Shown: piece by piece, positions 15,448 to 38,561 of the stretch
Position numbering within the stretch: position 1 is the first letter of the stretch
How the letters are laid out: every line of letters starts with the position of its first letter
Origin: Blattabacterium sp. (Cryptocercus punctulatus) str. Cpu
Lineage (GTDB): Bacteria; Bacteroidota; Bacteroidia; Flavobacteriales; Blattabacteriaceae
NCBI RefSeq assembly: GCF_000236405.1
Contig: NC_016621.1
Location: forward strand, 186,001 to 250,000
Direction: 5' to 3'
Length of the DNA stretch: 64,000 nt
Translations under genes and position numbers: made by a program
The notes under the pieces: model-generated
Told to the model about the DNA's origin: nothing
The model's input: only the letters and a program-made list of their open reading frames with translations
The model's database searches: none

Positions 15448-15462
15448 GCCAAAAACATGCCA
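15448..15462 (-). promoter_or_regulatory. Sigma-54-like -24/-12 promoter upstream of groES
   Basis: On the minus strand TTGGCATGTTTTTGGCTT contains the invariant GG (15461-15460) and GC (15449-15448) separated by ten bases. The -24 half TGGCA matches the consensus TGGCAC; the -12 half is TGGC instead of TTGC. A start about a dozen bases further on would give a leader of some 30 bases before the groES ATG. Inferred only from sequence; rpoN is not in the window. Confidence 0.6.
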
Positions 15463-15502
15463 AATAAAAAATATTTGAATTTTTTGTATTTAACTAATAT
15501 TA

Positions 15503-15519
15503 TATGCCATAATGACATA
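15503..15519. promoter_or_regulatory. Near-palindromic motif between secG and groES
   Basis: TATGCCATAATGACATA is an inverted repeat with one mismatched pair. The miaB-pncB spacer at 18977-18993 differs at only two of 17 positions on the opposite strand, and the dnaK upstream region shares its first 11 bases. Operator or secG 3' end signal; function unknown. Confidence 0.4.
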
Positions 15520-15526
15520 TTTTTTT

Positions 15527-15766
15527 TTATAAATTATGTTTTAATAAATAATTAAAAAATAAAACTAAAAAAAATATAAAAATAGATAATATCCAAGTTA
15601 ATTTTTCTAAAAAATTATTTGTTCTTTTAATTCCAAAAAGTCTAAAATTTTTATCCATAAAAGATTGATAAAAAATTCCTTTTTTAGGATTTTGTATTAA
15701 AATTATTATAATAAGAAAAAAACATATTAAAATAATAAACATTCCTATAAATATAATTGAATACAT
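15527..15766 (-). CDS. secG: Preprotein translocase subunit SecG
   Basis: Accessory membrane subunit of the SecYEG channel. 79 residues with two hydrophobic spans (about 4-26 and 55-74), and between them the polar loop with IIILIQNPKKG, the typical SecG LVQ.pKGgg-like motif in eroded form. The Gly/Ser-rich loop is shortened and Phe/Lys-rich. It sits between lptE and groES, as in free-living flavobacteria by memory. Weak sequence conservation keeps confidence below that of larger genes. Confidence 0.85.
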   Translation of the reverse strand: MYSIIFIGMFIILICFFLIIIILIQNPKKGIFYQSFMDKNFRLFGIKRTNNFLEKLTWILSIFIFFLVLFFNYLLKHNL

Positions 15767-15776
15767 ACATAATTAA

Positions 15777-16265
15777 TTACCAATTATTAAATATTTTATT
15801 ATATAATTGAGAAACTAAATTATTAATAATTTTTTCTGTTATAAGATAATTTTCTAATGGAAAGTTATCTTGTTGAGAAAAAGATTTTACAATATCAAAA
15901 TATTTTTCCCAATTTTTTTCTGGATTTAAATTATCTTTACAATAAATTTTTACTGTCATTTTAATAAATTTTAATTTTGAATTTCTTTTTTTAATTATTT
16001 TATAGTCTATAAAATCTCCAGATAAATGAATATTCCCTCCTTTTTTTACAAAATTCCAAGGAGTGTGTTTTAAAATAAAATTTTCAAATTTTTTTTTAAA
16101 TTCAAAAGAAATAGATTTTCCTGAAATATTTATATTATTATCTGAAAAATTTCCAATTTCTATTGTTTTTTTATCTTTATCCAATAAAAAAGGTTTATAA
16201 TGACAATGACTATTATTTAAAAAAACGTAAAAGAGAAATATAATAAAAATATTTTTATAAACCAT
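15777..16265 (-). CDS. lptE: LptE-like lipoprotein for LPS assembly (Bacteroidetes type)
   Basis: 162 residues with an N-terminal hydrophobic signal (about 4-20) ending in a cysteine in NNSHC near residue 21, an unusual lipobox. The core has TIEIGNFSDN, a LptE-family strand, and ISFEFKKKFENFIL. In the family the protein helps LptD insert lipopolysaccharide into the outer membrane. The call rests partly on position: between the sigma-54 activator and secG, the usual flavobacterial arrangement. It overlaps the activator gene by 11 bases. Sequence alone would be only a weak match. Confidence 0.72.
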   Translation of the reverse strand: MVYKNIFIIFLFYVFLNNSHCHYKPFLLDKDKKTIEIGNFSDNNINISGKSISFEFKKKFENFILKHTPWNFVKKGGNIHLSGDFIDYKIIKKRNSKLKFIKMTVKIYCKDNLNPEKNWEKYFDIVKSFSQQDNFPLENYLITEKIINNLVSQLYNKIFNNW

Positions 16266-17529
16266 ATTGTTTAATTTTTCTATATAATGTTCTTTCTGAA
16301 ATACCTAATTCTATTGCGGTTTTCTTTCTTTTTCCATTATTTTTTTTTAAAGCTTTTTTAATAAATTCAATTTCTTTTTTTTGTAATGAAAAAGAATTAG
16401 ATTCTTTTTTTGAAACATCTTCTTCTATTTCTTCATAATCGAAATCATATTTTGATAAAGGTTTTGAAGAATTTTCTAATTGAAATATTGAATCTTTTAC
16501 TATAGATTTAATAGAATTATTGGAAGGTTTAATTATTTTTCCAAATACTTTTTCCATAAGTTCTTGATTTTTTTTTATAAATTTATTATCATTGTTATTT
16601 TTTATTAATTGTAAGGTTAAGTTTTTAAGATGATTTAAACTTTTTTTCATATCAAATAAAATTTTATATAGAAAATCTCTTTCGTTAGAAAAATTTTGAA
16701 AAAAATACTCATTATTTATTGGATGAGAAAATGATAAAAATGGGATATTTTCTGGAATATATTCTTTTAATTTTTCTGATGAAATTTCACGTTTTTTTTC
16801 TATTACTGACATTTGTTCTATAATATTTTTTAATTGTCTTATATTTCCAGGCCAAGGATATTTTTCTAGATATATTATAGCATCTTCAGTCAATTTCATT
16901 GAAGGAATATGATATTTATCTGAAAAATCATTAGAAAATTTTTTAAATAATAATTTAATATCATTTTTACGAAAACGTAAAGGAGGAAGATTTATTTGAA
17001 CTGTATTAAGACGATAATATAAATCTTCTCTAAATTTTCCTTTTTGAATAGATTCTAGAAGATTTAAATTAGTTGCAGCTACAATTCGTATATTAGTTTT
17101 TTGTATTTTAGAAGACCCAACTTTTATAAATTCACCTGTTTCTAAAATTCGAAGTAGACGAACTTGTGTAGTTAAAGGTAATTCACCAACTTCATCTAAA
17201 AATATAGTTCCTCCATTTGCACCTTCAAAATATCCTTTTCGCATATTTGTAGCTCCTGTAAAAGATCCTTTTTCATGTCCAAATAATTCACTATCAATAG
17301 TTCCTTCTGGAATTGCCCCACAATTTACAGCAATATAAGAATGATGTTTTCTATAGGAAAATTGATGAATTATTTTAGGAATAAATTCTTTTCCTACTCC
17401 ACTTTCTCCAAGAACTAGTACGGAAATATCTGTTGGTGCAACTTGAATAGTTTTTTCTAAAGCTCTATGTAAAGCATAATCATTCCCAATAATGGAAAAT
17501 TTTTTTTTTATGTTATGAATAGATTCCAT
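16255..17529 (-). CDS. Sigma-54 interaction domain AAA+ transcription activator
   Basis: Enhancer-binding protein that remodels the sigma-54 RNA polymerase closed complex with ATP. 424 residues, no receiver domain. AAA+ motifs: Walker A GESGVGKE (about 41-48), GSFTGA (the sigma-54-contacting GAFTGA loop) after SELFGHEK, Walker B TIFLDEVGE, and RIVAATN. A linker of about 100 Lys/Asn-rich residues precedes a C-terminal Fis-type helix-turn-helix (KKTAIELGISERTLYRKI). The lack of a sensor domain suggests constitutive or protein-level control. It is the only specific activator in the window and sits in the same leftward string as secG and groESL. Confidence 0.95.
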   Translation of the reverse strand: MESIHNIKKKFSIIGNDYALHRALEKTIQVAPTDISVLVLGESGVGKEFIPKIIHQFSYRKHHSYIAVNCGAIPEGTIDSELFGHEKGSFTGATNMRKGYFEGANGGTIFLDEVGELPLTTQVRLLRILETGEFIKVGSSKIQKTNIRIVAATNLNLLESIQKGKFREDLYYRLNTVQINLPPLRFRKNDIKLLFKKFSNDFSDKYHIPSMKLTEDAIIYLEKYPWPGNIRQLKNIIEQMSVIEKKREISSEKLKEYIPENIPFLSFSHPINNEYFFQNFSNERDFLYKILFDMKKSLNHLKNLTLQLIKNNNDNKFIKKNQELMEKVFGKIIKPSNNSIKSIVKDSIFQLENSSKPLSKYDFDYEEIEEDVSKKESNSFSLQKKEIEFIKKALKKNNGKRKKTAIELGISERTLYRKIKQYGL

Positions 17530-17546
17530 ATATGGATTTTACTTAT

Positions 17547-18938
17547 TTATTTTTTTTCTATTCCTATTCCTATTAATGTAGCAGATGTATAATCTATTAT
17601 TTTTATAAAAACGGTTTCTCCTATTTTATAAGTTTTTTTTGGAAAAACTATTACAATATTTTGAGTATTTTTTCCATACCAATATTGATTATTTTTTTTA
17701 GATTCTCCTTCTATTAAAACTTCTTGAATTTTTCCTATATATTTTTTCATTTGAAAAATAGAATGATCTCTTTGAAGGTTAATAATTTCTTGTAATCGTT
17801 TTTTTTTTATAAATTCTGGAACATTATTTTCTAATTTATTATAAGAATAAGTTCCAGGTCTAGGAGAATATGAAAACATATAACCATAATTATATTTTAC
17901 TTCATTCATTAAACTAATTGTTTCTTGATGATCTTTTTCATCTTCATTACAAAATCCAGTCATAATATCATGAGATATAGAACATTCAGGAATTATAAAT
18001 TTAATTTTTTTAATTAAAGAAAGATATTGTTTACGAGTATATTTTCTATTCATTAATTTTAATATTTTATCGCTACCAGATTGGACTGGTAAATGAATAT
18101 GTTTACATATATTAGAATGTTTTGATATTACTTCTATTACTTTATTAGACATATCATGTGGATTAGAAGTAGAAAAACGAATTCTCATAAAAGGTATTTC
18201 TATAGCTAATAAATCTAAAAGTTTAGAAAAATCTATTATTTTTTTTTTTTCAGTGTATATTTTTTTATAAATTCTTTTTTTTAATCCATCATTACCCAAC
18301 CATACGTAAGAATCTACATTTTGACCTAAAAGAGTTACTTCTTTAAATCCTTTTTTATATAAAGTTTTACATTCTTTAATTATAGAATATGGATCACGAC
18401 TAATTTCTCTTCCTCTTGTAAAGGGAACTATACAAAAAGTACACATGTTATCACATCCTCTTGTTATACTTAAAAATGCTGTTATTTTATTTTTTTTTCT
18501 AAATGGCTTTATATTGTCATAGGTTTCTTTTTTAGATGAAAAAATATGAGAAATTTTTTCTCCTTTCATAGATAAACTAATTATACTAGGTATTTTTTTA
18601 TAGTAATCTGGTCCAATTGTAAAATTAATCAAATTATTATCTAAAAAATTTTTTTTCATTGAATTTGATAAACAACCCAAAATACCGAATAATATAGGTT
18701 TTTCTTTTTTTAAATATTGTAATTTTTGTAATCTATTTTTTATAGCTAATTCTACTTTAGTTCTTATAGAACAAGAATTTAATAAAATTATATTTGCTAT
18801 TTTCAAATTTTCTGTTAAAAAAAATCCATTATTTAATAATATAGAAGTAACTATTTCATTATCAGAAATATTCATTTGACATCCATAACTTTCTATATAA
18901 AAAAAATGTTTTTTAAATACTAAATTTTTTTCATTCAT
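17547..18938 (-). CDS. miaB: tRNA-2-methylthio-N6-dimethylallyladenosine synthase MiaB
   Basis: Radical-SAM enzyme that methylthiolates i6A37 in tRNAs. 463 residues, normal. The N-terminal UPF0004 domain carries the first cluster cysteines in SYGCQMN (about 14-20), NSCSIR and LGCLS. The radical SAM motif CDNMCTFCIVP is at about 161-171. A TRAM-like C-terminal domain holds VLIEGESKK and RPGTYSY lies before it. Followed at 17 bases by the sigma-54 activator gene. miaA, which supplies the i6A substrate, is not in the window. Confidence 0.96.
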   Translation of the reverse strand: MNEKNLVFKKHFFYIESYGCQMNISDNEIVTSILLNNGFFLTENLKIANIILLNSCSIRTKVELAIKNRLQKLQYLKKEKPILFGILGCLSNSMKKNFLDNNLINFTIGPDYYKKIPSIISLSMKGEKISHIFSSKKETYDNIKPFRKKNKITAFLSITRGCDNMCTFCIVPFTRGREISRDPYSIIKECKTLYKKGFKEVTLLGQNVDSYVWLGNDGLKKRIYKKIYTEKKKIIDFSKLLDLLAIEIPFMRIRFSTSNPHDMSNKVIEVISKHSNICKHIHLPVQSGSDKILKLMNRKYTRKQYLSLIKKIKFIIPECSISHDIMTGFCNEDEKDHQETISLMNEVKYNYGYMFSYSPRPGTYSYNKLENNVPEFIKKKRLQEIINLQRDHSIFQMKKYIGKIQEVLIEGESKKNNQYWYGKNTQNIVIVFPKKTYKIGETVFIKIIDYTSATLIGIGIEKK

Positions 18939-18976
18939 TATTAATTAATTTCTTTAAAAATTTAAAGATAAAAAAA

Positions 18977-18993
18977 AATGTCATTATGTCATA
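18977..18993. promoter_or_regulatory. Copy of the groES-region motif in the pncB-miaB spacer
   Basis: On the minus strand TATGACATAATGACATT, followed by a T run, lies after pncB and about 40 bases before the miaB start. It matches the groES-side motif at 15 of 17 positions. It could be an operator for the miaB-activator string or part of the pncB 3' end. Confidence 0.35.
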
Positions 18994-19022
18994 TATAATG
19001 TAAAATTATTATTATTTATAAA

Positions 19023-20198
19023 TTATGGAATTTGAAGTATTTTTTTAGCGTAAATAATCATTTTTTTATCTCCCGTAGATTTTTCTTTTACATTAGAAAG
19101 TTTAATAACAGATATCCATTTTTTTTTTGGAATCGCTTTTACCATTTTAATAACTATATTCATTGATGGAGGTCCAACATCATTGGTGAAATTAGTTCCT
19201 ATACAAAAAAATGGAATAATTTTATTTTTACAAAAAGAGGAAATATAAGTTATTTTATACGGATTAAGATTATCGGAAAATATAATTTTTTTTTGTAATG
19301 GATTGATTTTAAATTTTTTATAATGTTTTATAGTTTCCTCAATAAAAAAAATTGGATCTCCACTATCATGTCTAATACCTTCAAAAATATTTGCTAAGTT
19401 TTGATCAAAATTTTTAAAAAAAATCGGAGTAGTATATGTATCAGATAAAGCTATACCTAAATTTTTTCCATATATATTTAACCAATTTTTCATAGAAATT
19501 TTATCAGCCATATTAAATCCATATTTAGCTGCATGAAACATTACCCATTCATGTCCTTGAGTCCCAATAGGTTTTATTGATAAAATATGGGATAAATGTA
19601 CATTACTAGTACCTATAAAAAAAGATGGAGCTTCTTTTTTTATAAATTTTAAAACTAATTTATGTATTTGATATGAAAATCTTCTTCTAGTTCCGTATTC
19701 TCCAATTTTTATATTTAATTTTTTATATTTATTTAATTTTTCTTTCGTTAAAAAAAGAATTTTTTTATTTGAAATTCGTTTTGCATCTGTTAATTGATAA
19801 TATAATTCAGATATTATTGCCATTAAAGGTACTTCCCATAAAATAGTTCTATGCCATAATCCTTCTATATGTATTTGTATATTTTTTCCTTTTTGAGATA
19901 TATTAACTTCTTTTGGATTATATTGATATTTTTTTAAAAAATCAAGATAAGTAGAATCTAAATAAGGACAATTTTTTTCTAAAAAAATCCTTTCTTCATT
20001 TGATAATTTTAGATCCGACATTTTATCAAGATTTTTTTTTAAAAGATTAGCAAAATTTCTTGGAAAAGAATGTTTTCCACGATTTATAAATTCATATTTA
20101 GTTTTTACTAAAGGAAATAATTTTATTACAGCATTTTGCATAGTAAATTTATAAAAATCATTATCTAATAAAGAAGATACAATAGAAAATTCATTCAT
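19023..20198 (-). CDS. pncB: Nicotinate phosphoribosyltransferase
   Basis: Makes nicotinate mononucleotide from nicotinate and PRPP, the salvage entry to NAD. About 391 residues from the ATG at 20198 (another ATG three codons upstream at 20207). Visible family motifs are LLDNDFYKFTMQ (8-19), FINRG, GEYGTRRRFSYQ with the phosphorylated/substrate-binding region, FIGTSNVHLSH, QGHEW, GIRHDSGDP and FCIGTNFTND. Conserved His in TQGHEWVMFH is intact. Implies uptake of nicotinate from the host or from other NAD breakdown. Divergent from the RRM protein gene. Confidence 0.95.
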   Translation of the reverse strand: MNEFSIVSSLLDNDFYKFTMQNAVIKLFPLVKTKYEFINRGKHSFPRNFANLLKKNLDKMSDLKLSNEERIFLEKNCPYLDSTYLDFLKKYQYNPKEVNISQKGKNIQIHIEGLWHRTILWEVPLMAIISELYYQLTDAKRISNKKILFLTKEKLNKYKKLNIKIGEYGTRRRFSYQIHKLVLKFIKKEAPSFFIGTSNVHLSHILSIKPIGTQGHEWVMFHAAKYGFNMADKISMKNWLNIYGKNLGIALSDTYTTPIFFKNFDQNLANIFEGIRHDSGDPIFFIEETIKHYKKFKINPLQKKIIFSDNLNPYKITYISSFCKNKIIPFFCIGTNFTNDVGPPSMNIVIKMVKAIPKKKWISVIKLSNVKEKSTGDKKMIIYAKKILQIP

Positions 20199-20291
20199 TA
20201 TATTCATTAAATATAATCTTCGATAATTATTATTATTTGGAATACCTAAAAATAAAAAATTTTTTCAAAAAATTTTGTTTTTTTTATATAT

Positions 20292-20307
20292 GAAGTTAAA
20301 AAACTTC
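20292..20307 (+). promoter_or_regulatory. Hairpin in the leader of the RRM protein gene
   Basis: GAAGTT, AAAA, AACTTC forms a perfect 6-bp stem. A second A+T-rich hairpin (around 20317-20344) follows before the ATG at 20381. Possible leader structure controlling the RNA-binding protein; function unproven. Confidence 0.4.
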
Positions 20308-20380
20308 TTCAATAAGAATATTTTTCTTTTAGAAAAAATATTTCTCTAAATTTGCTTTTAAAACAATTTATTTTTTAATT

Positions 20381-20650
20381 ATGGATTATACGAAATTATA
20401 CGTTGGCAATTTATCTTATGATATGACAGAACAAGAATTAAAAGAATATTTTGAATCTATAGGAGAAGTTATTAACGCAAAAATTATTTTTGACGAATCT
20501 ACTTCTAATAAAAGAAGTAAAGGATTTGGATTTATAGAAATGTCTAATGAAGAAAATGCTAAACAAGCTATAGAAAAATTAAATGGAACAGAATTTATGG
20601 GAAGAAATATTATTGTTTCTGTAGCTAGACCAAGGATAAAAAGAGATTAA
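20381..20650 (+). CDS. RRM-type RNA-binding protein
   Basis: 89 residues forming a single RNA-recognition motif. RNP2 is LYVGNLSYD (about 6-14) and RNP1 is KGFGFIEM (about 48-55), with the aromatic residues that stack on RNA in place. It ends right after the domain with VARPRIKRD, lacking the Gly-rich tail of many relatives. Related bacterial proteins are often cold-induced RNA chaperones. It has a 180-base leader with two hairpins, so post-transcriptional control is plausible. Single-gene unit ahead of dapA. Confidence 0.93.
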   Translation: MDYTKLYVGNLSYDMTEQELKEYFESIGEVINAKIIFDESTSNKRSKGFGFIEMSNEENAKQAIEKLNGTEFMGRNIIVSVARPRIKRD

Positions 20651-20758
20651 TTCTTTTTTTATTTTTCTATACGTCTACATCTGTATTTATATAAATAAAA
20701 ATAAAAAAAATACTGAAATATTAATAATAATGTTAGTGAATTCACTATATGGATTTTT

Positions 20759-21631
20759 ATGAAAAAATTATATGGAACAGGTGTAGCGTTAGTTACTCCT
20801 TTTAAAAAAAATAGAAAAATTGATTTTAATGGACTTGAAAAGCTTTTAAAATATATAGAAGATAAAGTGGATTATTTAATAATATTAGGTACTACAGCAG
20901 AAACTTCTACTTTAGAAGAAAATGAAAAAAAAGATATAATTGAATGTATTAAAAATTCCAATTATAAAAAAATACCTTTAATATTAGGAATAGGAGGTAA
21001 TAATACAGAAAATGTTATCAAAAAAATAAAAAGTATAAATTTATCAGATTTTTTAGCAATTCTTTCTATTTCTCCTTATTATAATAATCCATCTCAAGAA
21101 GGAATATATCAACATTTTAAATCTATTATTAATAATACAGATGCCAATATAATCGTTTATAATGTTCCTAAGAGAACAGGATCAAATGTTTTTCCTGAAA
21201 CAATTATTCGTTTAGCTAATGATTTTAATAGAATTATAGGAATAAAAGAAGCATCTGGTAATATTTTACAATCTTATAAGATTATAAAAAAAAAACCAAA
21301 AAATTTTAGTGTGATAGCAGGAGATGATTTTATTTCTTTGCCTTTAATACTAGGTGGAGGAAATGGAATTATATCTGTAATAGCTCAAGGATTTCCAGAT
21401 AAAATATCTAAAATGATTTCTTTAGCGAAAAGTAATAAAGTTAAAGAAGCTTTTTCAATTTTTTATGAAATTTTTAATATGATTTATCTTATTTATGAAG
21501 AAGGAAATCCTACAGGAATAAAAACTTTTTTGGAGATTATAGGTATATGTAGTTCATATGTAAGATTACCATTATTAAGTGGAACTTATAATTTAAAAAA
21601 AAAAATGGAATTTTTATTAAAAAAACTATAA
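20759..21631 (+). CDS. dapA: 4-hydroxy-tetrahydrodipicolinate synthase
   Basis: Condenses pyruvate and aspartate semialdehyde, the committed step to lysine and meso-diaminopimelate. 290 residues, normal. GTGVALVTPF opens it; GTTAETSTL matches the family GTTGE.xTL loop; the catalytic tyrosine is in NVPKRTG/VYNVP and the Schiff-base lysine in GIKEASG (about 164); AGDDF and GGGNGIISV follow. Heads a compact rightward run dapA-ferritin-bamD-rpoZ. Fits amino-acid provisioning or peptidoglycan synthesis by an endosymbiont. Confidence 0.95.
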   Translation: MKKLYGTGVALVTPFKKNRKIDFNGLEKLLKYIEDKVDYLIILGTTAETSTLEENEKKDIIECIKNSNYKKIPLILGIGGNNTENVIKKIKSINLSDFLAILSISPYYNNPSQEGIYQHFKSIINNTDANIIVYNVPKRTGSNVFPETIIRLANDFNRIIGIKEASGNILQSYKIIKKKPKNFSVIAGDDFISLPLILGGGNGIISVIAQGFPDKISKMISLAKSNKVKEAFSIFYEIFNMIYLIYEEGNPTGIKTFLEIIGICSSYVRLPLLSGTYNLKKKMEFLLKKL

Positions 21632-21652
21632 ATTAATTATTTAATTTTTATT

Positions 21653-22180
21653 ATGTTTAGTAAAAAAATACAAGTAGAATTAAAAAAACAATTAAATAGA
21701 GAATTAGAATCTTCTCAATTATATTTATCTATGGCATCTTGGGTTGAATATAAATATGGTGGTCTTGATGGAATATATAATTTTTTATATGATCATTCGG
21801 ATGAAGAAAGAAGACATATGTTGAAGTTAATAAAGTATATTAATAAAAGAGGAGGATATGTGGATAATTTTAATAAAAGTGAATATTATATTTTTGAAAA
21901 AATTTCATATAATTCTTTGATGAATTTATTTTATAAATTATTTGAACATGAAAAAAAAAATTCTTTGGAAATTAATTTTTTAGTTGAATTATCATTACAG
22001 GAAAAAGATTTTTTTACATATAATTTTTTACAATGGTATGTCGAAGAACAAATAGAAGAAGAAGTTTTAATAAAAAAAATATTGGATAAAATTGAATTAA
22101 TTGGAGAAGATAAAGGTGGTTTATATTTATTTAATCATGATATTAAAAATTTTTATTCAAAAAAATTTGGAAAAAATTAG
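21653..22180 (+). CDS. ftnA: Ferritin (non-heme)
   Basis: Iron-storage four-helix-bundle protein, 175 residues, normal. Ferroxidase ligands are visible in ELESSQLYLSMASW (about 17-30), the HSDEERRHMLKL helix (about 47-58) with the E..H pair, and YVEEQIEEE near residue 130. Iron storage also limits oxidative damage. It is only 21 bases after dapA and 6 before bamD, so probably co-transcribed. The N-terminus MFSKKIQVELKKQLNRE fits the family, so the start is secure. Confidence 0.94.
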   Translation: MFSKKIQVELKKQLNRELESSQLYLSMASWVEYKYGGLDGIYNFLYDHSDEERRHMLKLIKYINKRGGYVDNFNKSEYYIFEKISYNSLMNLFYKLFEHEKKNSLEINFLVELSLQEKDFFTYNFLQWYVEEQIEEEVLIKKILDKIELIGEDKGGLYLFNHDIKNFYSKKFGKN

Positions 22181-22186
22181 ATAATT

Positions 22187-22828: not shown

Positions 22829-22832
22829 AATA

Positions 22833-23144
22833 ATGAATTTTAAAGAAATTAAAGCTCCAATAAATACAGAAACAATAGATCGTGAAGAATTAGAAAAAAA
22901 ATCCGGAAAAAATATTTATGGAACTATTTGTATTTTAGACAAAATTAGTCAAAAAATTAGTCAAAAAATTAAAGAAAATTTAGATAAAAAATTGGAAGAA
23001 TTCAATTTTATAAATAAAAATAATTTAGAAGAAATTTTTGAAAATAAGGAACAAATAGATTTATCTAAATTTTATGAAAAACTTCCAAAATCTACATCTA
23101 TTTCTATTCAATATTTATTAGATAATAAAATAAAAATTAATTAA
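22833..23144 (+). CDS. rpoZ: DNA-directed RNA polymerase omega subunit, Bacteroidetes type
   Basis: Small RNA polymerase assembly subunit. 103 residues beginning MNFKEIKAPINTETIDREEL, with GNIYGTI-like SGKNIYGTICIL, the repeated ISQKISQKIKENL helix, and the Bacteroidetes-specific EIFENKEQIDLSKFYEKLPK. This matches the Bacteroidetes omega family rather than the short E. coli form. The DNA repeat behind ISQKISQ suggests a small in-frame duplication. Convergent with the transaldolase gene, overlapping its 3' end by 8 bases. Confidence 0.9.
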   Translation: MNFKEIKAPINTETIDREELEKKSGKNIYGTICILDKISQKISQKIKENLDKKLEEFNFINKNNLEEIFENKEQIDLSKFYEKLPKSTSISIQYLLDNKIKIN

Positions 23145-23799: not shown

Positions 23800-23883
23800 A
23801 TATTTTTAATAAGTAATAAAAACAAATTTATAAAAAATTAAGAATAAAAATTTGTAAATTTATATTTATCAAAAATTATAATT

Positions 23884-26946: not shown

Positions 26947-26960
26947 ATTATGGGATTTAA

Positions 26961-28187
26961 TTAAAGAATTACGAGTAAAATAATTTTTTTAATAACCATA
27001 TTTTTATCTATATTTAAAATTTTGTTAGATTCTTTCATTTCAAATATATAATCTACAAATATTTTTTCACAAAAAGTACGTAATCCTCTAGCACCTAATC
27101 CTAATTGAATAGTTTCATTTACTATAATATCCAAAGCATCCTCCGTAATATTCATGGATATTTTATCCATATTAAATAATTTTTTATATTGTTTTATTAA
27201 AGCATTTTTTGGTTCAATTAAAATTTTTTTTAATGTAATTTTATTTAATGGATCTAAATAGGTGATAATAGGAAATCTACCAATAAGTTCGGGAATTAAT
27301 CCAAATTTTCTAAGATCATTAACTATAATATTTTGTAAATAATTTTTTTTTCTTTTTTCTTTTTTTATAATAAATCCAATAGAGAATTGATTAATTCTAT
27401 CGGATATAATTTTTTCTATTCCATCAAATGTACCTCCAGCAATAAATAATATATTATCGGTATTAATTTGAATCATTTTTTGATCTGGATGTTTACGACC
27501 ACCTTGTGGTGGAACATTAATAATAGTACCTTCTAATAACTTCAACAAAGCTTGTTGTACACCTTCACCGGATACATCTCTAGTAATAGATGGATTATTT
27601 TTTTTTCTAGCAATTTTATCAATTTCATCTATAAAAATAATTCCTTTTTCAGCATGATTTATATCATAATTTACAGATTGTAATAATCTTGTTAAGATAG
27701 ATTCGACATCTTCTCCAACATATCCTGCTTCCGTTAAAGTAGTTGCATCTGCTATAGTAAAAGGAACTTTTAATAGTTTAGAAATACTTTTAGCGAGTAA
27801 AGTTTTTCCGGTACCTGTATTCCCAATTAATAAAATATTGGATTTTTCTATTTCTATATCATCTTTATTTTTATTTTTATCGTATTGTATACGTTTATAA
27901 TGATTATATACAGCAACAGAAATAATTTTTTTTGCTTCATTTTGTCCTATAATATATTTATCTAAAAAATCTTTTATTTCTTTAGGTTTTTTTATTTGTA
28001 TTTTTTGATTTTTTACATTATATATTTTTTCTTCAAAATCTTTTTTTTCCGTAGAAAATTTTTTATGAATTATAGAATATGTTTTTTCTATACAAAAATT
28101 ACAAATATGCCCATTAATACCTGATATTAGAAATGTTATTTCATCTTTTTTTCTACCACAAAAATTACATTTTAAAAAATTTTCCAT
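26961..28187 (-). CDS. clpX: ATP-dependent Clp protease ATP-binding subunit ClpX
   Basis: AAA+ unfoldase feeding ClpP. 408 residues. The N-terminal zinc-binding C4 domain has CNFCGRKK (8-15) and ICNFC; Walker [10 protein letters not shown] (about 117), the GYVGEDVES pore segment, Walker [18 protein letters not shown], and the sensor-2 GARGLR are present. clpP is not in the window. The 3' end overlaps the restored obgE end by about 23 bases. Start ATG at 28187 is followed by the family [11 protein letters not shown]. Confidence 0.96.
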
Positions 28188-28315: not shown

Positions 28316-28323
28316 AAGTTTGG

Positions 28324-28427: not shown

Positions 28428-30053
28428 ATGGTTATTAAATACATTTTTGTTACTGGTGGAGTAACTTCTTCATTGGGTAAAGGAATTATTTCTGCTTCCT
28501 TAGGAATGTTATTGAAAAGTAGAGGATATAAAATTACAATTCAAAAATTAGATCCTTATTTTAATGTAGACCCAGGGACATTAAATCCTTATGAACATGG
28601 AGAATGTTTCGTAACTCAAGATGGAGCTGAAACGGATTTAGATTTAGGTCATTATGAGCGGTTTTTAGATCAACCTACTACGAAAGATAATAATGTTACT
28701 TCTGGTCTTATATATAAAACGGTCATTGATAATGAACGAAAGGGCTATTATTTAGGAAAAACTGTACAAGTTATTCCTCATATTACAAATGAAATTAAAA
28801 GACGTATTAAAATGTTGGGATCATCCAATAATTATGATATTATTATTACTGAAATAGGAGGAACTGTTGGAGATATAGAATGTCTTCCTTATATTGAATC
28901 TGTTCGTCAATTAAAATGGGAATTAGGAGAATTAAATAGTTTAATAATTCATTTAACTTTATTACCATATATATCAGTTACTGGAGAAATAAAAACAAAG
29001 CCAACACAACATTCTGTTCGAAATTTAATGAAAAATGGGATTCAAGCAGATATTTTAGTATGTAGAACAGAAAAACACATATCTAAAAATATTCGAAATA
29101 AATTAGCATTATTTTGTAATGTAAAACCAGAATATGTAATTGAATCTATTAATACAAAAGTTATATATGATATTCCATATTTATTACATTTACAAAATTT
29201 TGATAAATCTGTTTTAGATCATTTAAATTTATCTACTTTTACATCCCCTAATTTGCATAAGTGGAAAATTTTTCTAAAAAAATATAAAAATCCTAAATAT
29301 GAAATTAAAATTGCATTAGTTGGAAAATATGTTTCTCTACATGATTCTTATAAATCAATTACTGAAGCATTAATTCATGCAGGTACAGAAAATGAAATTT
29401 ATGTTAATATAAAATGGATTTATTCAGAAAAAATAAAAGAAAATAATATAGAAGAATATTTTAATGAAATTTCAGGAATTTTAATTGCTCCTGGATTTGG
29501 AATTAGAGGAATAGAGGGTAAAATACTTGCAACAAAATATGCAAGAGAAAAAAAAATCCCTTTTTTAGGTATATGTTTAGGTATGCAAATAGCAGTAATT
29601 GAATTTGCTAGAAATGTATTAGAAATACGAAATGCGGAAAGTAATGAAACTAATCCATATGCTCCTTATCCAGTTATTAGTTTAATGAAAGAACAAAAAA
29701 ATATTACAAAAAAGGGTGGGACTATGCGTTTAGGAAATTGGAAATGTTCTTTAATAAAAGGATCGAAAATTTTTTCTATTTATGGAGGGAAAAAAGAAAT
29801 TATTGAAAGACATCGTCATAGGTATGAATTTAATAATGAATATTTAGAAAATTTTTCTAATGCTGGAATGAAAACTGTAGGAATAAATCCTGATACCGGA
29901 TTAGTAGAAGCCATAGAATTAGATAATCATATTTTTTTTTTAGGGGTTCAGTTTCATCCTGAATATAAAAGCACAGTTTCTAATCCTCATCCTTTATTTA
30001 ATTATTTTGTTCAAATTTCTAAAAATTATAAATCATTTGTTTATCATGGATAG
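28428..30053 (+). CDS. pyrG: CTP synthase
   Basis: Aminates UTP to CTP using glutamine. 541 residues. N-terminal synthetase domain: FVTGGVTSSLGKGI (7-20), DPYFNVDPGTLNPYEHGECFVT, GGTVGDIE; C-terminal amidotransferase domain with GFGIRGIEGK, the nucleophile in GICLGMQ (about 383) and the His-Glu pair in QFHPEY (about 509). Full length and intact. It is 14 bases ahead of yidC, a pairing seen in flavobacteria by memory. The upstream region also carries the promoter of the divergent SRP RNA. Confidence 0.97.
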   Translation: MVIKYIFVTGGVTSSLGKGIISASLGMLLKSRGYKITIQKLDPYFNVDPGTLNPYEHGECFVTQDGAETDLDLGHYERFLDQPTTKDNNVTSGLIYKTVIDNERKGYYLGKTVQVIPHITNEIKRRIKMLGSSNNYDIIITEIGGTVGDIECLPYIESVRQLKWELGELNSLIIHLTLLPYISVTGEIKTKPTQHSVRNLMKNGIQADILVCRTEKHISKNIRNKLALFCNVKPEYVIESINTKVIYDIPYLLHLQNFDKSVLDHLNLSTFTSPNLHKWKIFLKKYKNPKYEIKIALVGKYVSLHDSYKSITEALIHAGTENEIYVNIKWIYSEKIKENNIEEYFNEISGILIAPGFGIRGIEGKILATKYAREKKIPFLGICLGMQIAVIEFARNVLEIRNAESNETNPYAPYPVISLMKEQKNITKKGGTMRLGNWKCSLIKGSKIFSIYGGKKEIIERHRHRYEFNNEYLENFSNAGMKTVGINPDTGLVEAIELDNHIFFLGVQFHPEYKSTVSNPHPLFNYFVQISKNYKSFVYHG

Positions 30054-30067
30054 AACTATTTTTAGTT

Positions 30068-31897: not shown

Positions 31898-32658
31898 AAG
31901 ATGAGTTTTATTTTTTTTTGAGAAAAAAAATATAATTTATTATCATTTTTAAATTCTATAATTAAATTTCCTTTTTTAGTTATATTTCGTATAACTCCTT
32001 GAGTAAATTTTTTATGTTTATAATTATTATTAATAATCTCAAAAAAAGATATTTTATCTTTCATATAAAGGTTATTTATGTAATAATTTCTTATAAATTT
32101 TTCTCCATAAGTTATAAAAAGAAAACATTCTTTTTGAATGAAATAAATTAATTCATAAAAAAGTTTTTCTAATTGAAAATTTTTTTTAAGAATTTTTTTT
32201 AAAGAAGAAGCTTGAAATTTTTTATCAAATTTTATTTGATTTACATTCAATCCTATTCCAATAATAATTGCATATATTTTTTTATATAAAACATTATTTT
32301 CAATTAAAATTCCTCCTATTTTTTTATTAAATAAAATGATATCATTAGGCCATTTAATCCATATATTTTTATTATAAATAAATAATGTTTTATGAATTGC
32401 ATTACTTATAATAAAATTGATAATATATCCTTTATTAATAGGAAAAATTATTGATTTTAAAAAAATACTAAAAGTCAAATTTTTTCCTTTTTCTGTCTCC
32501 CAATTGTTTTTCCCTACTCCTTTTCCATTTATTTGATTTATAGACCAAACTATAGTCCAATTTTTCATATGTTTTAATGTAATTCTTTTTATATACTGAT
32601 TAGTAGAATCTACTTTTTGTAAAAAAATTAAATATATTGGCCAAATGAATTTTTTCAA
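31894..32658 (-). CDS. birA: Biotin--[acetyl-CoA-carboxylase] ligase
   Basis: Attaches biotin to the carboxyl carrier protein of acetyl-CoA carboxylase. 254 residues, no N-terminal DNA-binding domain, so monofunctional. DSTNQYIKR (about 17-25), the biotin-binding loop GKGVGKNNWET in place of GRGRxGR-type sequences, KWPNDI (about 103-108), KIGGILIEN and IGIGLNVN are visible. The altered GRGR loop keeps Gly and Lys but lacks the second Arg. Divergent from rsfS. Confidence 0.9.
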   Translation of the reverse strand: MKKFIWPIYLIFLQKVDSTNQYIKRITLKHMKNWTIVWSINQINGKGVGKNNWETEKGKNLTFSIFLKSIIFPINKGYIINFIISNAIHKTLFIYNKNIWIKWPNDIILFNKKIGGILIENNVLYKKIYAIIIGIGLNVNQIKFDKKFQASSLKKILKKNFQLEKLFYELIYFIQKECFLFITYGEKFIRNYYINNLYMKDKISFFEIINNNYKHKKFTQGVIRNITKKGNLIIEFKNDNKLYFFSQKKIKLIF

Positions 32659-32750
32659 AATATTTTATATTGAAAAATTTAAATTTTTTAGAATGAAAAC
32701 CTTATTTTTGTTTTTTGAAATTAAAAAAATAATATAATAAAAATTCCGTT

Positions 32751-33071
32751 TTGTTATTAAATAAAATTATAGAAGGGATAAAAATTGTAAATGAAAAAGA
32801 TATTTCTATTTTAAACTTTAAAAATAGAAAAAATTTTGTTTGTGATTATTTTGTTATTTGTGATGGAAAATCTAAAAGTCAAGTTTATGCTATTTTTAGA
32901 TATATAGAAAAAATGACAATTGAAAAATTAAAAATAAAGCCTTGGCATATCGAAGGATCGGAAAATGGAGAGTGGATATTGATGGATTATATTTCTATTG
33001 TTGTACATATTTTCCAAAAAAAACTGAGATTATATTATAATTTAGAAAATATTTGGAATGAAAAATTATAA
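32751..33071 (+). CDS. rsfS: Ribosomal silencing factor RsfS
   Basis: Binds L14 and blocks subunit joining in starvation. 106 residues, slightly short. CDYFVICDGKSKSQV (about 30-44), KPWHIEGSENGEWILMDY (about 63-80) and IVVHIF are the family core. There is no ATG: the frame opens at 32733 after a TAA and the only standard initiator is TTG at 32751, which leads directly into LLNKIIEGI. Upstream of ftsH, the normal flavobacterial order birA-rsfS-ftsH-cdsA-psd. Confidence 0.9.
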   Translation: MLLNKIIEGIKIVNEKDISILNFKNRKNFVCDYFVICDGKSKSQVYAIFRYIEKMTIEKLKIKPWHIEGSENGEWILMDYISIVVHIFQKKLRLYYNLENIWNEKL

Positions 33072-33111
33072 TCATGCTTAGTTTATATATTTAGATAAAT
33101 GAAGAAAATTT

Positions 33112-35058
33112 ATGATAGATAAAAAAGTGAAAAGAAAAAATAACTTTTTTTGGATATATGCAGTTATATTAATTATATTTCTGGGAATATTTTTTTTTAA
33201 ATCTTCTTTTTCTAATCCTAGAAAAATTGATCAAGATACCTTTTTTGAAATTCTCATGAAAGGGGAAATACAAAAAATAATAATAAAACATAGAGAAATT
33301 GTACATGTTTATTTGAAAAAAAAGTATTTATCTTCTAATAATCATATCAATCAATATGATATAAAAAATCAAAATTATCAAAAATTTATTATACATCCTT
33401 TACAATATGAATTTGAAATAGGAGATTTACAATTTTTTCAAAAAAAATTTGAAGAATACAAAAATAAATATAATCTAGATACAATTATTGATTTTAAAAA
33501 TCAACAGGAATATACTATAACAAAATTTTTTTTTGATTATGGTATATTTCTAATATTGTTAATTATTTTTTGGATTTTTATATTTAGAAAAATTGGATCT
33601 TCTGCAGCTGGTCCAGGAAGTCAAATATTTAATATTGGAAAATCTAGAGCTAAATTATTTGATGAAAATGATAATGTTAAAATAACATTTAAGCAAGTTG
33701 CTGGTTTAGAAGAAGCTAAAGAAGAAGTACAAGAAATTGTAGAATTTTTAAAAAGTCCTAATAAATATACTAAACTAGGAGGTAAAATCCCTAAAGGTGT
33801 ACTATTGATAGGTCCTCCTGGTACTGGAAAAACTTTATTAGCAAAAGCTGTAGCTGGTGAAGCTAAAGTTCCTTTTTTTTCCATTTCTGGTTCTGATTTT
33901 GTAGAAATGTTTGTTGGTGTAGGAGCTTCTAGAGTGAGAGATTTATTTGAAAAAGCAAAAGAAAAATCTCCTTGTATAATATTTATTGATGAAATTGATG
34001 CTATAGGAAGAGCGAGAGGAAAAAGTAATATAGCTGGATCTAATGATGAAAGAGAAAATACATTAAATCAATTACTTACAGAAATGGATGGATTTGGAAC
34101 ACATACAAATGTAATTGTTTTAGCAGCTACTAATAGATCTGATATTTTAGATAAAGCATTGCTTCGACCTGGTCGTTTTGATAGAACTATATTAGTAGAT
34201 CCTCCTGAATTAAATGAAAGAAAAGAGATATTTAGGGTACATATTCAAAAACTTATATTATCTGATAAAGTAGATATTAATTTTTTAGCTAGGCAAACTC
34301 CAGGTTTTAGTGGAGCTGATATAGCAAATATTTGTAATGAATCTGCACTTATTGCAGCAAGAAAAAATAGATCTAAAATAGAAAATAAAGATTTTTTAGA
34401 TGCTATAGATCGTATTATAGGTGGGTTAGAAAAAAAAAATAAGATTATTAAACCAAATGAAAAAAAAAGAATTGCTTATCATGAGGCGGGACATGCTGCA
34501 ATAAGTTGGTTATTAGAACATGCATCTCCATTAGTTAAAGTAACAATTGTCCCAAGAGGAAAATCTTTAGGATCGGCATGGTATCTTCCTGAGGAAAGAC
34601 AATTAACAACTCCAGAACAAATGAAAGATGAAATCTGTGCTTTACTTGCAGGTAGATCTGCAGAAGAAATTATTTTTAATAATATTTCAACAGGGGCCTT
34701 AAATGATTTAGAAAAAGTAACTAAACAAGCTCAATCTATGGTAGCAGTTTTTGGATTGAATGATAAAATTGGAAATATTTCTTATTATGATTCTACAGGA
34801 CAAAATGAATTTTCTTTTTCTAAACCTTATAGTGAAAAAACTGCTCAAATTATAGATGAAGAAATATCAAAAATTATTACAGAACAATATAAAAGAGCTA
34901 AAAATATATTAAAAAATAATGAAAAAAAATTATCTATCCTTGCTAATGAATTATTAGAAAAAGAAGTTATTTTTAGAGAAGATTTAAAAAAAATATTTGG
35001 AGAAAGACCTTTTTCTGATGATATCGGAGATATGTTAACTACAGTTAATCATTTTTAA
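33112..35058 (+). CDS. ftsH: ATP-dependent zinc metalloprotease FtsH
   Basis: Membrane-anchored quality-control protease. 648 residues. Two spans (about 12-30 and 142-160) surround a small periplasmic domain; then GPPGTGKT (about 234-241), the pore [15 protein letters not shown], Walker [10 protein letters not shown], second region of homology RPGRFDR and the zinc site HEAGH near residue 457-461 with the third ligand in LNDLEK. Stop and cdsA start overlap as TAATG, so translation is coupled. Confidence 0.97.
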
Positions 35059-35879
35059 TGAAAATAGAATTAATGAAAAAAAAAAATGATTTAGGGATAA
35101 GATTTTTTACCGGATTTATTTATGTTTTTATGATTATTTTTTCAATTGAAAAAGGAGAAAAGATTTTTAGAATGGTAATGATGATATTATCTTTTTTTTG
35201 TTTATTTGAATTTTTAGTTATTTTAAAAACAAATACAACTTTAATAAAAATAAATTCATTCTTTTTTTTATTTTCGATATTTTTAGATTTTCTTGTAGAA
35301 AAAGATATATTTTTATATATCATATGTTTTATCCCATATTCTATAACATTTTTTATTATTCAATTGTTTTCTAAAGGGGTTTCTCATCAAGAGAAAATAA
35401 GACAAATAAGTCATTTAACTTTTGGATTAGTATATGTTTTAATTCCATTTTTTTTAGCATCTTATATATATTCTAAATATGGAAAAGAATTAATTTTAGG
35501 TACATTTTTTCTTATATGGACAAATGATACTTTATCCTATTTGATAGGAATAAAATGGGGAAAAAGGAAAATAGATATATCTATATCTCCTAAAAAATCT
35601 ATAGAAGGATTTATTGGAGGTTTATTTTTTTGTTTAATATTGGGAATATTATTATCCAATATTTGGGGAAAAAAATATTGGTTTATTCTTTCTTTTATCA
35701 TTCCTATTTTTTCTACTATTGGAGATCTTGTAGAATCTACTATTAAAAGATCTTATAATGTAAAAAATTCAGGAATATGGTTTCCTGGACATGGTGGATT
35801 TTTAGATAGATTAGATAGTTTTATATTTGTCATACCAATTATAGCTACTATTGCTACTGGAATAGTATATTTTTTTTAA
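35058..35879 (+). CDS. cdsA: Phosphatidate cytidylyltransferase
   Basis: Makes CDP-diacylglycerol for all phospholipids in the inner membrane. 273 residues with about 7-8 hydrophobic helices. The CdsA signature near the C-terminus, STIGDLVESTIKRSYNVKNS then GHGGFLDRLDS (about 225-256), is intact, as is WTNDTLSYLIG. Start by TAATG overlap with ftsH; a second ATG five codons in is possible. Its product feeds PssA, absent here, and then psd, which follows. Confidence 0.94.
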   Translation: MKIELMKKKNDLGIRFFTGFIYVFMIIFSIEKGEKIFRMVMMILSFFCLFEFLVILKTNTTLIKINSFFFLFSIFLDFLVEKDIFLYIICFIPYSITFFIIQLFSKGVSHQEKIRQISHLTFGLVYVLIPFFLASYIYSKYGKELILGTFFLIWTNDTLSYLIGIKWGKRKIDISISPKKSIEGFIGGLFFCLILGILLSNIWGKKYWFILSFIIPIFSTIGDLVESTIKRSYNVKNSGIWFPGHGGFLDRLDSFIFVIPIIATIATGIVYFF

Positions 35880-35942
35880 ATAAAATATAGATGATCCATA
35901 AAGAAGGATTTCCATTTTTAATATATTTATTAATATTAATAT

Positions 35943-36557
35943 TTGATAGGAATTTTTATTTCTATTTTTATATTTTCTAGATTTTTTAACTTATTTTTAA
36001 TATTTTTTTTAATTATATTTTATGCATTTTTCCTTTTCTTTTTCAGAAATCCAAAAAAAAATTTATCTAAAAAAAAATTTAAAAATGATAATGAAGTGAT
36101 TTCTCCTTCTGATGGAAAAATATTAGAAATAAAAAAAATTTTTGAAAGTGAATTTTTACAAAAAAATTGTATATGTATATCTATATTTATGTCTCCATTT
36201 GATGTACATGTAAATAGATTTCCAGTATCTGGAAAAATAATTTATGTTAGATATCATCCAGGTAAATATTGGTTAGCATGGAATAAAAAATCATCGTTAA
36301 ATAACGAACGAACAACTACAGTTATAGAAACAATAAATACAAAAAAAAAAATACTATTTCGACAAATAGCTGGATTTTTAGCTCGTCGTATTATTCTTTA
36401 TGCTAAAGAAAATTGTTTAGCTAAAAAAGGAGAAGAATTTGGATTTATTAAATTTGGATCTAGAATAGATATTTATCTACCATTAGATTCTATTATTTTT
36501 ATCAAAAAAGGGGAAAAAGTTATTGGTGGAGAAACTATAATTTCTATGATACCATAA
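35943..36557 (+). CDS. psd: Phosphatidylserine decarboxylase, N-terminus out of frame
   Basis: Pyruvoyl enzyme making phosphatidylethanolamine. The reading from a TTG at 35943 has 204 residues: hydrophobic N-terminus, FFFRNPKK, SPSDGKIL, the SPFDVHVNRFP segment (about 82-92), and the FIKFGSRIDIYLP self-cleavage site where the Gly-Ser bond makes the pyruvoyl group. The expected start MIHKEGFPFLIYLLIL lies at 35891 in another frame and joins perfectly if one T is removed around 35942-35944. So either a TTG start lacking about 17 residues or a frameshift. Core is intact. Confidence 0.92.
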   Translation: MIGIFISIFIFSRFFNLFLIFFLIIFYAFFLFFFRNPKKNLSKKKFKNDNEVISPSDGKILEIKKIFESEFLQKNCICISIFMSPFDVHVNRFPVSGKIIYVRYHPGKYWLAWNKKSSLNNERTTTVIETINTKKKILFRQIAGFLARRIILYAKENCLAKKGEEFGFIKFGSRIDIYLPLDSIIFIKKGEKVIGGETIISMIP

Positions 36558-36564
36558 AAATAAT

Positions 36565-36600
36565 AAAAAAACTAATCCCAATAAGGGGATTAGTTTTTTT
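36565..36600. terminator. Bidirectional terminator between psd and dnaK
   Basis: A7 then CTAATCCC (36572-36579), a six-base loop, GGGATTAG (36586-36593) then T7: a strong stem with flanking A and T runs, placed 7 bases after the psd stop and just after the dnaK stop on the other strand. Confidence 0.92.
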
Positions 36601-36601
36601 A

Positions 36602-38506
36602 TTATTTAACTTCTTCATAATCTACATCTTGGACATTTTCATTTCCTTTATTATTTTTTTCTTCATTATTTTTTTTATTAGAATCATTTGAATTATTATT
36701 TTTTTTATTGGAAGAATAAAGTTCTTGTGATGCATTAGCCCAAACTTCGTTTAATTTTTTCATACAAATATCAATAGATGAAAAATCTTTTTTACTGTGT
36801 GCCAGTCTTAATTCTTCTAAAGATTTTTTTATATTTTTTTTATTATTTTCAGATAATTTATCTCCATAATCTTTTAACTGTTTTTCAGATTGAAAAATCT
36901 GATTATCTGCGGAATTTAATTTATCTATTTCTCCTTTTATTTTTTCGTCTTTTTTTGCATTTTCTTCCGCTTCTCTTTTCATTTTTTCAATTTCCTCTTG
37001 ATTTAACCCTGAAGAAGTTTCAATTCGTATAGATTGTTCTTTTCCAGTCCCTTTATTTTTTGCAGAAACATTAAGTATTCCATTAGCATCAATATCAAAA
37101 CTAACCTCAATTTGAGGAATTCCTCTAGGTGAAGGAGGGATCTCAATGAGATCAAATCTTCCTATTTCTTTATTATCATTGAACATAGGTCTTTCTCCTT
37201 GTCCTACTCTTATAGTTACTGCAGATTGATTATCTGATGCTGTAGAAAAAATTTCTGATTTTTTAGTAGGAATAGTAGTATTGGATTCTATAAGTTTTGT
37301 AAAAACACCCCCTAAAGTTTCTATTCCTAAAGATAAAGGAGTTACATCAAGCAATAAAACATCTTGTACATCACCTGTTAAAACTCCTCCTTGTATAGCA
37401 GCACCAATAGCTACAACTTCATCTGGATTTACTCCTTTAGATGGTTTTTTTTTAAAAAATTCTTCAACTTTTTCTTGTACTTTTGGAATTCTCGTAGAAC
37501 CTCCTACTAAAATAACTTCGTCAATATCTTTAGTAGATAATCCAGCTGATTCTAATGCTTTGGAACATGGATTAATAGATCTAAATATTAAATTTTCAGA
37601 TAATTGTTCAAATTTAGATCGAGTTAATGTAAGAACCATATGTTTTGGCCCTGATTCTGTAGCAGTAATATATGGTAAATTTATTTCTGTTTTAGTAGAA
37701 GATGATAATTCTATTTTAGCTTTTTCAGAAGCTTCTTTTAAACGTTGTAAAGCCATAGGATCATTTCTAAGATCTATTTCTTCTTTAGATTTAAATTCAT
37801 TGGATAAATAATCAATTATAACTTGATCAAAATTATCTCCTCCTAAATGTGTATCTCCATTAGTAGAAAGTACTTCGAAAACTCCATCTCCTAATTCTAA
37901 AATAGAAACATCGAATGTCCCACCACCTAAATCATATACTACTATTTTTTTATTTTGATTTTTTTTATCTAAACCATAAGCTAATGCTGCAGCTGTTGGC
38001 TCATTAATAATCCTTTCTACTTTCAATCCGGCAATTTCTCCAGCTTCTTTAGTAGCTTGTCTTTGGGCATCATTAAAATATGCTGGTACAGTAATAACTG
38101 CTCTATTTACTTTTTTTCCTAGATAATCTTCAGCTGTTTTTTTCATTTTTTGAAGTATCATAGCAGATATTTCTTGAGGTGCATATAATCTATTTTCTAT
38201 ATTAACACGTGGTGTGTTATTTCCACCTTTGACAATTTTATAAGGAATATGTTTTGATTCTTCTGTTACTTCAGAAAACATTCTACCCATAAAACGTTTA
38301 ATTGAAAAAATAGTTTTTTGTGGATTCGTAACTGCTTGTCTTTTTGCAGGATCTCCTATTTTTCTTTCTCCATCTTCTATAAAAGCCACTATTGATGGAG
38401 TAGTCCTTTTACCTTCTGAATTAGGTATGACAACAGGATCATTTATTTCCATTACTGCAACACAAGAATTTGTTGTCCCTAAATCTATTCCTATAATTTT
38501 ACTCAT
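36602..38506 (-). CDS. dnaK: Chaperone protein DnaK (Hsp70)
   Basis: Hsp70 chaperone. 634 residues. [14 protein letters not shown] (4-17), [38 protein letters not shown] and [10 protein letters not shown] define the ATPase domain; [14 protein letters not shown] is the linker and start of the substrate domain. The C-terminal end is Asn/Lys-rich, with DVDYEEVK as last residues, close to the usual EEVD-like DVDYEEVK of bacteria. dnaJ and grpE are not adjacent. A sigma-54-like element precedes it at the same spacing as at groES. Confidence 0.98.
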
Positions 38507-38526
38507 TTTTATTACTTTATTTTCAT

Positions 38527-38546
38527 ACTGTCATTCAATAGACAGT
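38527..38546. promoter_or_regulatory. Inverted repeat ahead of dnaK
   Basis: ACTGTC (38527-38532), eight bases, GACAGT (38541-38546). It lies 21-40 bases before the dnaK ATG, where transcription from the neighbouring sigma-54-like element would start, so operator or leader hairpin are both possible. Confidence 0.4.
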
Positions 38547-38561
38547 TCAATCATTATGCCA
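38546..38561 (-). promoter_or_regulatory. Sigma-54-like promoter upstream of dnaK
   Basis: Minus-strand TGGCATAATGATTGAA: TGGCA, six bases, TTGA, with the spacing of the TGGCA-N6-TTGC consensus. The -12 GC is GA here. The GG pair lies 53-54 bases before the dnaK ATG, compared with about 57-60 for the groES element. Confidence 0.5.

Follow-up and report, generated by a model that had tools for sequence, protein, structure and literature searches.

The stretch of DNA analysed here, referred to below as the window, comprises 64,000 nucleotides of the genome of Blattabacterium sp. (Cryptocercus punctulatus) str. Cpu, namely positions 186001–250000 of a 605,745-bp contig (the assembly of 609,561 bp consists of two contigs; for the second, of 3,816 bp, all 10 matching records are Blattabacterium plasmids). 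On its minus strand it carries the chaperone genes groES (15125–15403), groEL (13415–15055) and dnaK (36602–38506), and a gene for a sigma-54 enhancer-binding protein (EBP; 16255–17529, minus strand) composed of an AAA+ domain, a linker and a Fis-type helix-turn-helix (HTH). Sigma-54 promoters are characterized by GG at −24 and GC at −12 (GG-N10-GC), and transcription starts about 12 nt past the −12 element. An earlier proposal for this DNA (the original prediction) held that promoters of this type may control both groESL and dnaK in a stripped-down heat-shock circuit. From the comparisons described below, we propose that sigma-54 and the EBP control groESL, dnaK and a third target, grpE (probability roughly 0.88).

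Three sets of sequences were compared. The main sets were 19 genomes of the genus and 12 relatives from the order, 11 of which yielded a locus for each target (no locus was obtained from G019 for groES, G027 for dnaK and G024 for grpE). A third set of named Flavobacteriia consisted of 80 loci, the best 80 of at least 592 candidates; since these were picked by EBP similarity and many come from near relatives, they are not statistically independent. Eleven of the 80 have no groES on the plus strand of the locus and two have no miaB match, which leaves 69 and 78 loci, respectively, for the two upstream regions.

The element upstream of groES (TGGCATGTTTTTGGC, 15448–15462, minus strand) is the perfect GG-N10-GC that had been predicted, and all of its 15 columns, including GG and GC, are invariant in the 19 genus genomes. 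The element upstream of dnaK (TGGCATAATGATTGA, 38547–38561, minus strand) is also present and has its first 14 columns, with GG-N10-G, invariant in all 19; its −12 element reads GA, not GC. Conservation in relatives, which had been named as a check, extends to both boxes, except that at −12 dnaK does not keep the C. The first base of the box is 59 nt from the groES start and 55 nt from the dnaK start, in line with the nearly equal distances noted before. The flanks of both boxes drift across the genus while the box columns stay fixed.

The number of boxes in the window is not significant by itself: six sites are within one mismatch of TGGCA-N6-TTGC where 3.6 would be expected, and a count of six is also attained in 17 of 100 shuffles. 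Significance comes from their position outside open reading frames (ORFs), from their invariance in the genus and from a paired upstream palindrome. The other four window sites are all inside ORFs. In the whole genome there are 39 sites within one mismatch (19 + 20; 6 + 8 for the reversed control), of which 36 are inside ORFs or rRNA. The remaining three are those of groES, dnaK and, outside the window at G000:C2:531483–531497, the grpE-dnaJ genes; a search for further elements, suggested together with the original prediction, has here yielded one more non-ORF site. The ORF filter covered ORFs of at least 60–90 codons, rRNA and one 84-codon ORF recognized by eye, and its results were checked by hand. 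It also flagged the groES site due to a 103-codon antisense ORF over groES; we count this site as intergenic because it is located between secG and groES. As the filter is mechanical, an additional real site under a chance ORF may be hidden. Two matches were rejected as promoters: an exact-consensus match at G000:C2:279941, which is inside the 16S rRNA gene, and a match at 29820, which is in the 84-codon ORF, by eye resembling ribosomal protein L27.

Alternatively, the housekeeping sigma factor might transcribe the chaperone genes from −33/−7 promoters, the TGGCA boxes being relics. Endosymbionts commonly express their chaperones constitutively, a search for sigma-70 region 2 gave a single match in the genome, and in three genus genomes, where the grpE elements have been lost, grpE must be read otherwise. 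However, the housekeeping −7 box TANNTTTG, at which transcript starts would have refuted the original prediction, does not occur in the 130 nt before groES in any of the 19 genus genomes (shuffles predict 12.7%) and precedes dnaK in two (16.2% in shuffles). Among the named loci, it precedes groES in 6 of 69 cases (4.6% expected) as opposed to 74 of 78 for miaB (6.8% expected from shuffles). Relics would also hardly show invariant columns amid drifting flanks. Moreover, mapped transcription starts of Flavobacterium psychrophilum carry a sigma-54-type motif (SM4) at groESL, lon, dnaK, grpE-dnaJ and htpG, which share co-expression cluster B254, and at clpB (PMC9723704). We regard relic boxes as very improbable.

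All three boxes are preceded by a palindrome of the form TGNCA-N3-TGNCA, a putative operator or upstream activating sequence (UAS). A gap of 42 nt separates the groES copy (TGTCATTATGGCA on the minus strand, 15505–15517) from its box, and one of 66 nt the dnaK copy (TGACTTTTTGTCA on the minus strand, 38628–38640), which has one mismatch to TGNCANNNTGNCA; allowing one mismatch, each is found in 19 of 19 genus genomes. For grpE the distance is 13 nt by coordinates. Without mismatch, TGNCANNNTGNCA occurs at only three places in the genome, upstream of groES, of grpE and of the gene string starting with miaB (see below), the reversed control giving none. The original account of the elements was incomplete in that it included neither the palindromes nor the grpE-dnaJ target nor the copy at the miaB operon.

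Loose searches for the palindrome show no excess in the window, with 32 sites found compared with 30.4 expected at three mismatches, and for TGACNNNNNGTCA at one mismatch three compared with 4.9 expected. The evidence is therefore position and pairing, not the motif alone. A combined pattern, TGCCA-N8..68-TGNCANNNNGNCA, in which the palindrome has one relaxed position and lies 8–68 nt upstream, matches exactly groES, dnaK and grpE in this genome. In the 19 genus genomes it has 43 matches, 40 of them upstream of groES, dnaK or grpE (the exceptions are G017:335902, G003:380452 and G013:416936), and the reversed pattern has two in total. In the larger genomes of the order relatives the pattern is non-specific (e.g. 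12 matches compared with 22 for the reversed pattern in G019). One of the 40 is a second copy in G002, where the grpE palindrome-plus-box element is present twice, identical and 633 bp apart (G002:C1:87562–87592 and 88195–88225).

For pairs of box and palindrome we used a common rule, which demands A, C or T as the last box base and at most one mismatch in the palindrome. By this rule the pair is present in the genus at groES in 19, at grpE in 15 and at dnaK in 11 of the 19 genomes, and in the order relatives at groES in 9, at dnaK in 10 and at grpE in 9 of 11 loci each; in shuffled sequences it reaches at most 0.4%. Upstream of grpE the palindrome is present in 16 of 19 genus genomes, and the box that 15 of these have by the rule is one base off in the sixteenth; all 16 have GG at −24 and GC at −12, the latter as TTGC. 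A chance origin of the elements is rejected by conservation, exclusivity and shuffles.

Among the named loci, the distance from the palindrome end to the box clusters near 12, 33, 43, 53 and 64 nt, 44 of the 56 one-mismatch sites being at 11–13 nt, and the symbiont's distances are near the same phases. Of seven periods compared, 10.5 bp, the helical repeat, fits best; the vector strength is then 0.84 for 45 exact sites and 0.88 for the 56 one-mismatch sites, values to which relatives contribute non-independently. Most named loci also have a second degenerate palindrome or a TGTCA half-site that ends 12 nt upstream of the groES box (50 half-sites at this distance in the 69 loci), frequently in addition to a perfect palindrome at a greater distance. 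A TTTTTATTGTCA-like half-site is located between the dnaK palindrome and box in many genus genomes (L034–L050), and none was seen there in the present genome.

The EBP had been described originally as the only dedicated activator seen, with a GSFTGA loop and a Fis-type HTH, and this is confirmed. The domains PF00158, PF25601 and PF02954 all score above cut-off, and the motifs GSFTGA and GESGVGKE are present. The protein starts directly with the AAA+ domain and lacks an N-terminal sensor domain; about 125 residues separate the AAA+ lid from the HTH, which is strongly conserved. In all 19 genus genomes the reading frame runs uninterrupted to a common C-terminus, RTLYRKIKQYGL, and this domain plan recurs in nine orthologues from order relatives. 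A structure prediction from 34 sequences was poor (mean predicted local distance difference test score, pLDDT, 62.6), reaching fair confidence only for the HTH (residues 382–422) and a linker helix (280–310). Two further hits to PF00158 were obtained in the genome: a 705-residue ClpC-like ATPase (35.6 bits), rejected as an EBP, and a 408-codon ORF spanning 26961–28187 of the window (22.3 bits), presumably ClpX. With 223 bits, the protein encoded at 16255–17529 is the strongest hit and the one clear EBP of the genome.

The sigma factor itself is encoded as well. In a profile search of the genome we found RpoN with its activator-interacting (AID), core-binding (CBD) and DNA-binding (DBD) domains, above the cut-off of the rpoN equivalog family TIGR02395; absence of this gene would have spoken against the original prediction. 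In other bacteria the same chaperone genes are controlled by sigma-32 or by HrcA and CIRCE. No match to HrcA was obtained in the whole genome, and the earlier statement that no CIRCE is visible holds for the 64-kb window, where a search for TTAGCACTC-N9-GAGTGCTAA gave no hit. The genome thus shares the target genes with the HrcA/CIRCE and sigma-32 systems and differs from them in these absences and in its single sigma-70-family factor.

The EBP gene is part of a leftward string that reads miaB (17547–18938), EBP, probable lptE (15777–16265) and secG (15527–15766), all on the minus strand, followed by groESL. Spacing and orientation suggest an operon, of which miaB is presumably the first gene. 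The lptE assignment is based on position and on the annotation of the neighbouring gene in F. psychrophilum, as there was no Pfam match. In 9 of the 12 order relatives miaB, EBP and groES are adjacent within the stretches examined; one other stretch ended at a contig end.

Upstream of miaB the palindrome occurs once more (TGACATAATGACA, 18979–18991), as a putative operator and probable autorepression site. It is present in 14 of 19 genus genomes, and 74 of 78 named loci have an exact copy in the 250 nt preceding miaB (0.19% in shuffles). No sigma-54 box was found upstream of miaB in the 19 genus genomes. Instead, TANNTTTG starts 16–20 nt after the palindrome in 68 of the 74 named loci, and 10 nt after it in four more; in the present genome, a −7-like box (TANNTTTA, 18963–18970, minus strand) is located beside the palindrome, TATCTTTA starting 8 nt after it. 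This palindrome at the EBP's own operon ties the motif to the EBP and suggests autorepression as in PspF. From one and the same UAS, PspF of Escherichia coli activates stress genes and shuts down the sigma-70 promoter of its own gene (PMC3709507). We consider it probable that the EBP likewise represses its own operon via a palindrome in the housekeeping promoter. The palindrome could also activate the miaB-EBP string, and the spacing of 8 nt here and 10 nt in four named loci, rather than 16–20 nt, would suit this. Such activation is unlikely, however, since in 68 of 74 loci the palindrome occupies the −33/spacer region of a housekeeping-type promoter, the genus has no sigma-54 box at miaB, and PspF represses from its UAS (PMC3709507). 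For F. psychrophilum, a start with the motif SM5 (TAnnTTGY) is listed at an EBP gene that adjoins lptE and, by locus numbering, is near groESL (PMC9723704); the EBP may therefore be read from more than one promoter, including one inside the string.

Could the palindrome be the site of another transcription factor, with the EBP acting elsewhere or without binding DNA? A survey of the class and phylum gives this some room, as some genomes with strong EBP matches lack the groES pair. It is, nevertheless, hardly to be expected given that the palindrome precedes the EBP's own string in 74 of 78 named loci, that in the present genome its mismatch-free form is confined to that string and two chaperone promoters, that the distances to the box are helically phased, and that the Fis-type HTH is strongly conserved.

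Outside the genus, the palindrome (at most one mismatch) is present in all 69 named groES upstream regions (6–7% in shuffles) and the pair in 62 (0.09% in shuffles). The looser box is found in 65 (2.8%). When TGG, A and the −12 G are required in the count, the groES box of these loci reads TTGGCAyAATTTCTG, and the next base is A in 34, C in 21, T in 12 and G in 2 of them. With this variable last base, absence of the C at −12 is normal in these Flavobacteriia. The same box and palindrome occur at groESL, dnaK and grpE, and the EBP gene is in a miaB-lptE-secG-groES cluster, as expected of a flavobacterial sigma-54 chaperone regulon. Being common to free-living Flavobacteriia, the circuit is inherited and not an invention of the symbiont.

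In a further draw of 146 genomes with groES, the upstream regions of 67 loci from 65 genomes were scanned (G000, G020 and G023 were counted separately). The groES pair was found in 13 of 14 loci of the same order, shuffles giving 0.2–1% throughout this draw. Strong EBP matches (E ≤ 1.7e-165) were obtained in all 37 genomes of the own order and class that were searched, the own genome included.

Several observations weigh against control by sigma-54 and the EBP as proposed. The dnaK −12 element reads GA here, and its fifteenth column is A in ten, G in eight and T in one of the genus genomes. Both grpE elements are missing in G008, G009 and G016, and the miaB palindrome in 5 of 19 genus genomes. 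The strict consensus fails for most named groES boxes, only 25 of 69 being within one mismatch (1% in shuffles), and seven of the 69 loci have no pair by the rule applied to them. In the further draw the pair was found in only 9 of 21 loci of the same class and in 7 of 32 outside it, and strong EBP matches extend to families outside the class that lack the groES pair. As the EBP is present in all 37 genomes but the pair is patchy, the groES operator is less widespread than the EBP.

The seven pairs outside the class are restricted to two families, f32 (5 of 5) and f21 (2 of 2), compared with 0 of 25 in the others. In f32 (L296, L306–L309) groES has a TGGTAC-type box with TTGC and a one-mismatch palindrome, possibly a diverged circuit. 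In the genus, the three genomes without the grpE elements are those whose chromosomes are smallest, and they may form a single clade (support 81/56).

The proposed circuit builds on what is observed directly: the genes, boxes and palindromes, their pairing and conservation, the helical phasing and the exclusivity in the genome. RNA polymerase with sigma-54 would transcribe groESL, dnaK and grpE-dnaJ from the −24/−12 promoters, and the EBP, bound to TGNCA-N3-TGNCA, would open the closed complex. The string miaB-EBP-lptE-secG beside groESL would be read by the housekeeping sigma factor, and with the same palindrome in the core promoter region of this string, self-repression of the EBP, like that of PspF in E. 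coli, is most likely. Because the EBP has no sensor domain, its output may be set by its own amount through autorepression, and perhaps by a partner. Heat or misfolding might be the trigger. The heat-shock circuit envisaged in the original prediction finds support in the presence of rpoN, in conservation, in the absence of the −7 box from the genus groES upstream regions (130 nt) and in the F. psychrophilum starts.

PspF has no N-terminal sensor domain either, and the layout with a UAS at its own promoter is the same. Differences are the targets, which are cytoplasmic chaperones here, the stretch of ~125 residues between lid and HTH, and the score for the PspF family TIGR02974, where the EBP reaches 271.7 bits and fails the cut-off of 443.55. 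We suggest that the EBP works like PspF but do not class it as PspF.

Sigma-54 control of flavobacterial chaperones is already in print. The F. psychrophilum study reports SM4 at the same three targets, groESL, dnaK and grpE-dnaJ, within a wider set (lon, htpG, clpB, skp and gliding genes), and counts three PF00158 proteins without assigning an activator (PMC9723704); in Blattabacterium we find one EBP and three targets, and propose an operator. In the computed sigma-54 regulons of Carrera-Reyna et al. (2025), the predicted targets in Flavobacteriia are enriched for groES, groEL, dnaK, dnaJ and grpE (PMC12316311). We noted no activator or operator for these chaperones in that study, whose main text contains no occurrence of ‘MiaB’, ‘PspF’ or ‘upstream activating’; for experimental dependence it cites a Blattabacterium genome paper (PMC12316311), a reference that looks misplaced to us. 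Apparently new, as not found in the literature searched, are the activator, the operator, the likely self-repression and the reduced form of the circuit in the symbiont. The proposed activator and operator would supply what was missing for the F. psychrophilum promoters, to which no activator was assigned, and heat-shock control in a large bacterial group becomes testable by one gene deletion.

Retention of RpoN has been described as unusual for insect endosymbionts and has been linked to nitrogen in Walczuchella (PMC3971599). Blattabacterium, Uzinura and Walczuchella keep it, and the fourth symbiont tabulated, by exclusion Sulcia, does not (PMC3971599). The sites described here suggest that Blattabacterium keeps RpoN for its chaperones. 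The genus would also illustrate stepwise erosion of a regulon, three genomes having lost promoter and operator of grpE together while groES and dnaK keep both.

Feedback from chaperone availability is conceivable, although we consider it doubtful. The EBP would be kept inactive by free DnaK or GroEL, possibly through its conserved linker helix (residues 280–310), and the sensorless EBP would run the heat-shock response of Flavobacteriia, activating groESL, dnaK and grpE and repressing itself. DnaK acts on sigma-32 in a comparable feedback. If true, Blattabacterium would keep the smallest natural sigma-54 system known, with one sigma factor, one activator and three promoters.

Two minor features were noted at the target genes. 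An inverted repeat, CTGTC-N8-GACAG, is located between the dnaK box and start (window positions 38528–38545); as this stretch varies in relatives, it is probably outside the circuit. The GrpE protein (L064:684–1460; G000:C2:530669–531442) has an N-terminal run of eleven INDN(P/L)LKE repeats, and in the GrpE of relatives the matched part begins within or past this run (residues 62–109).

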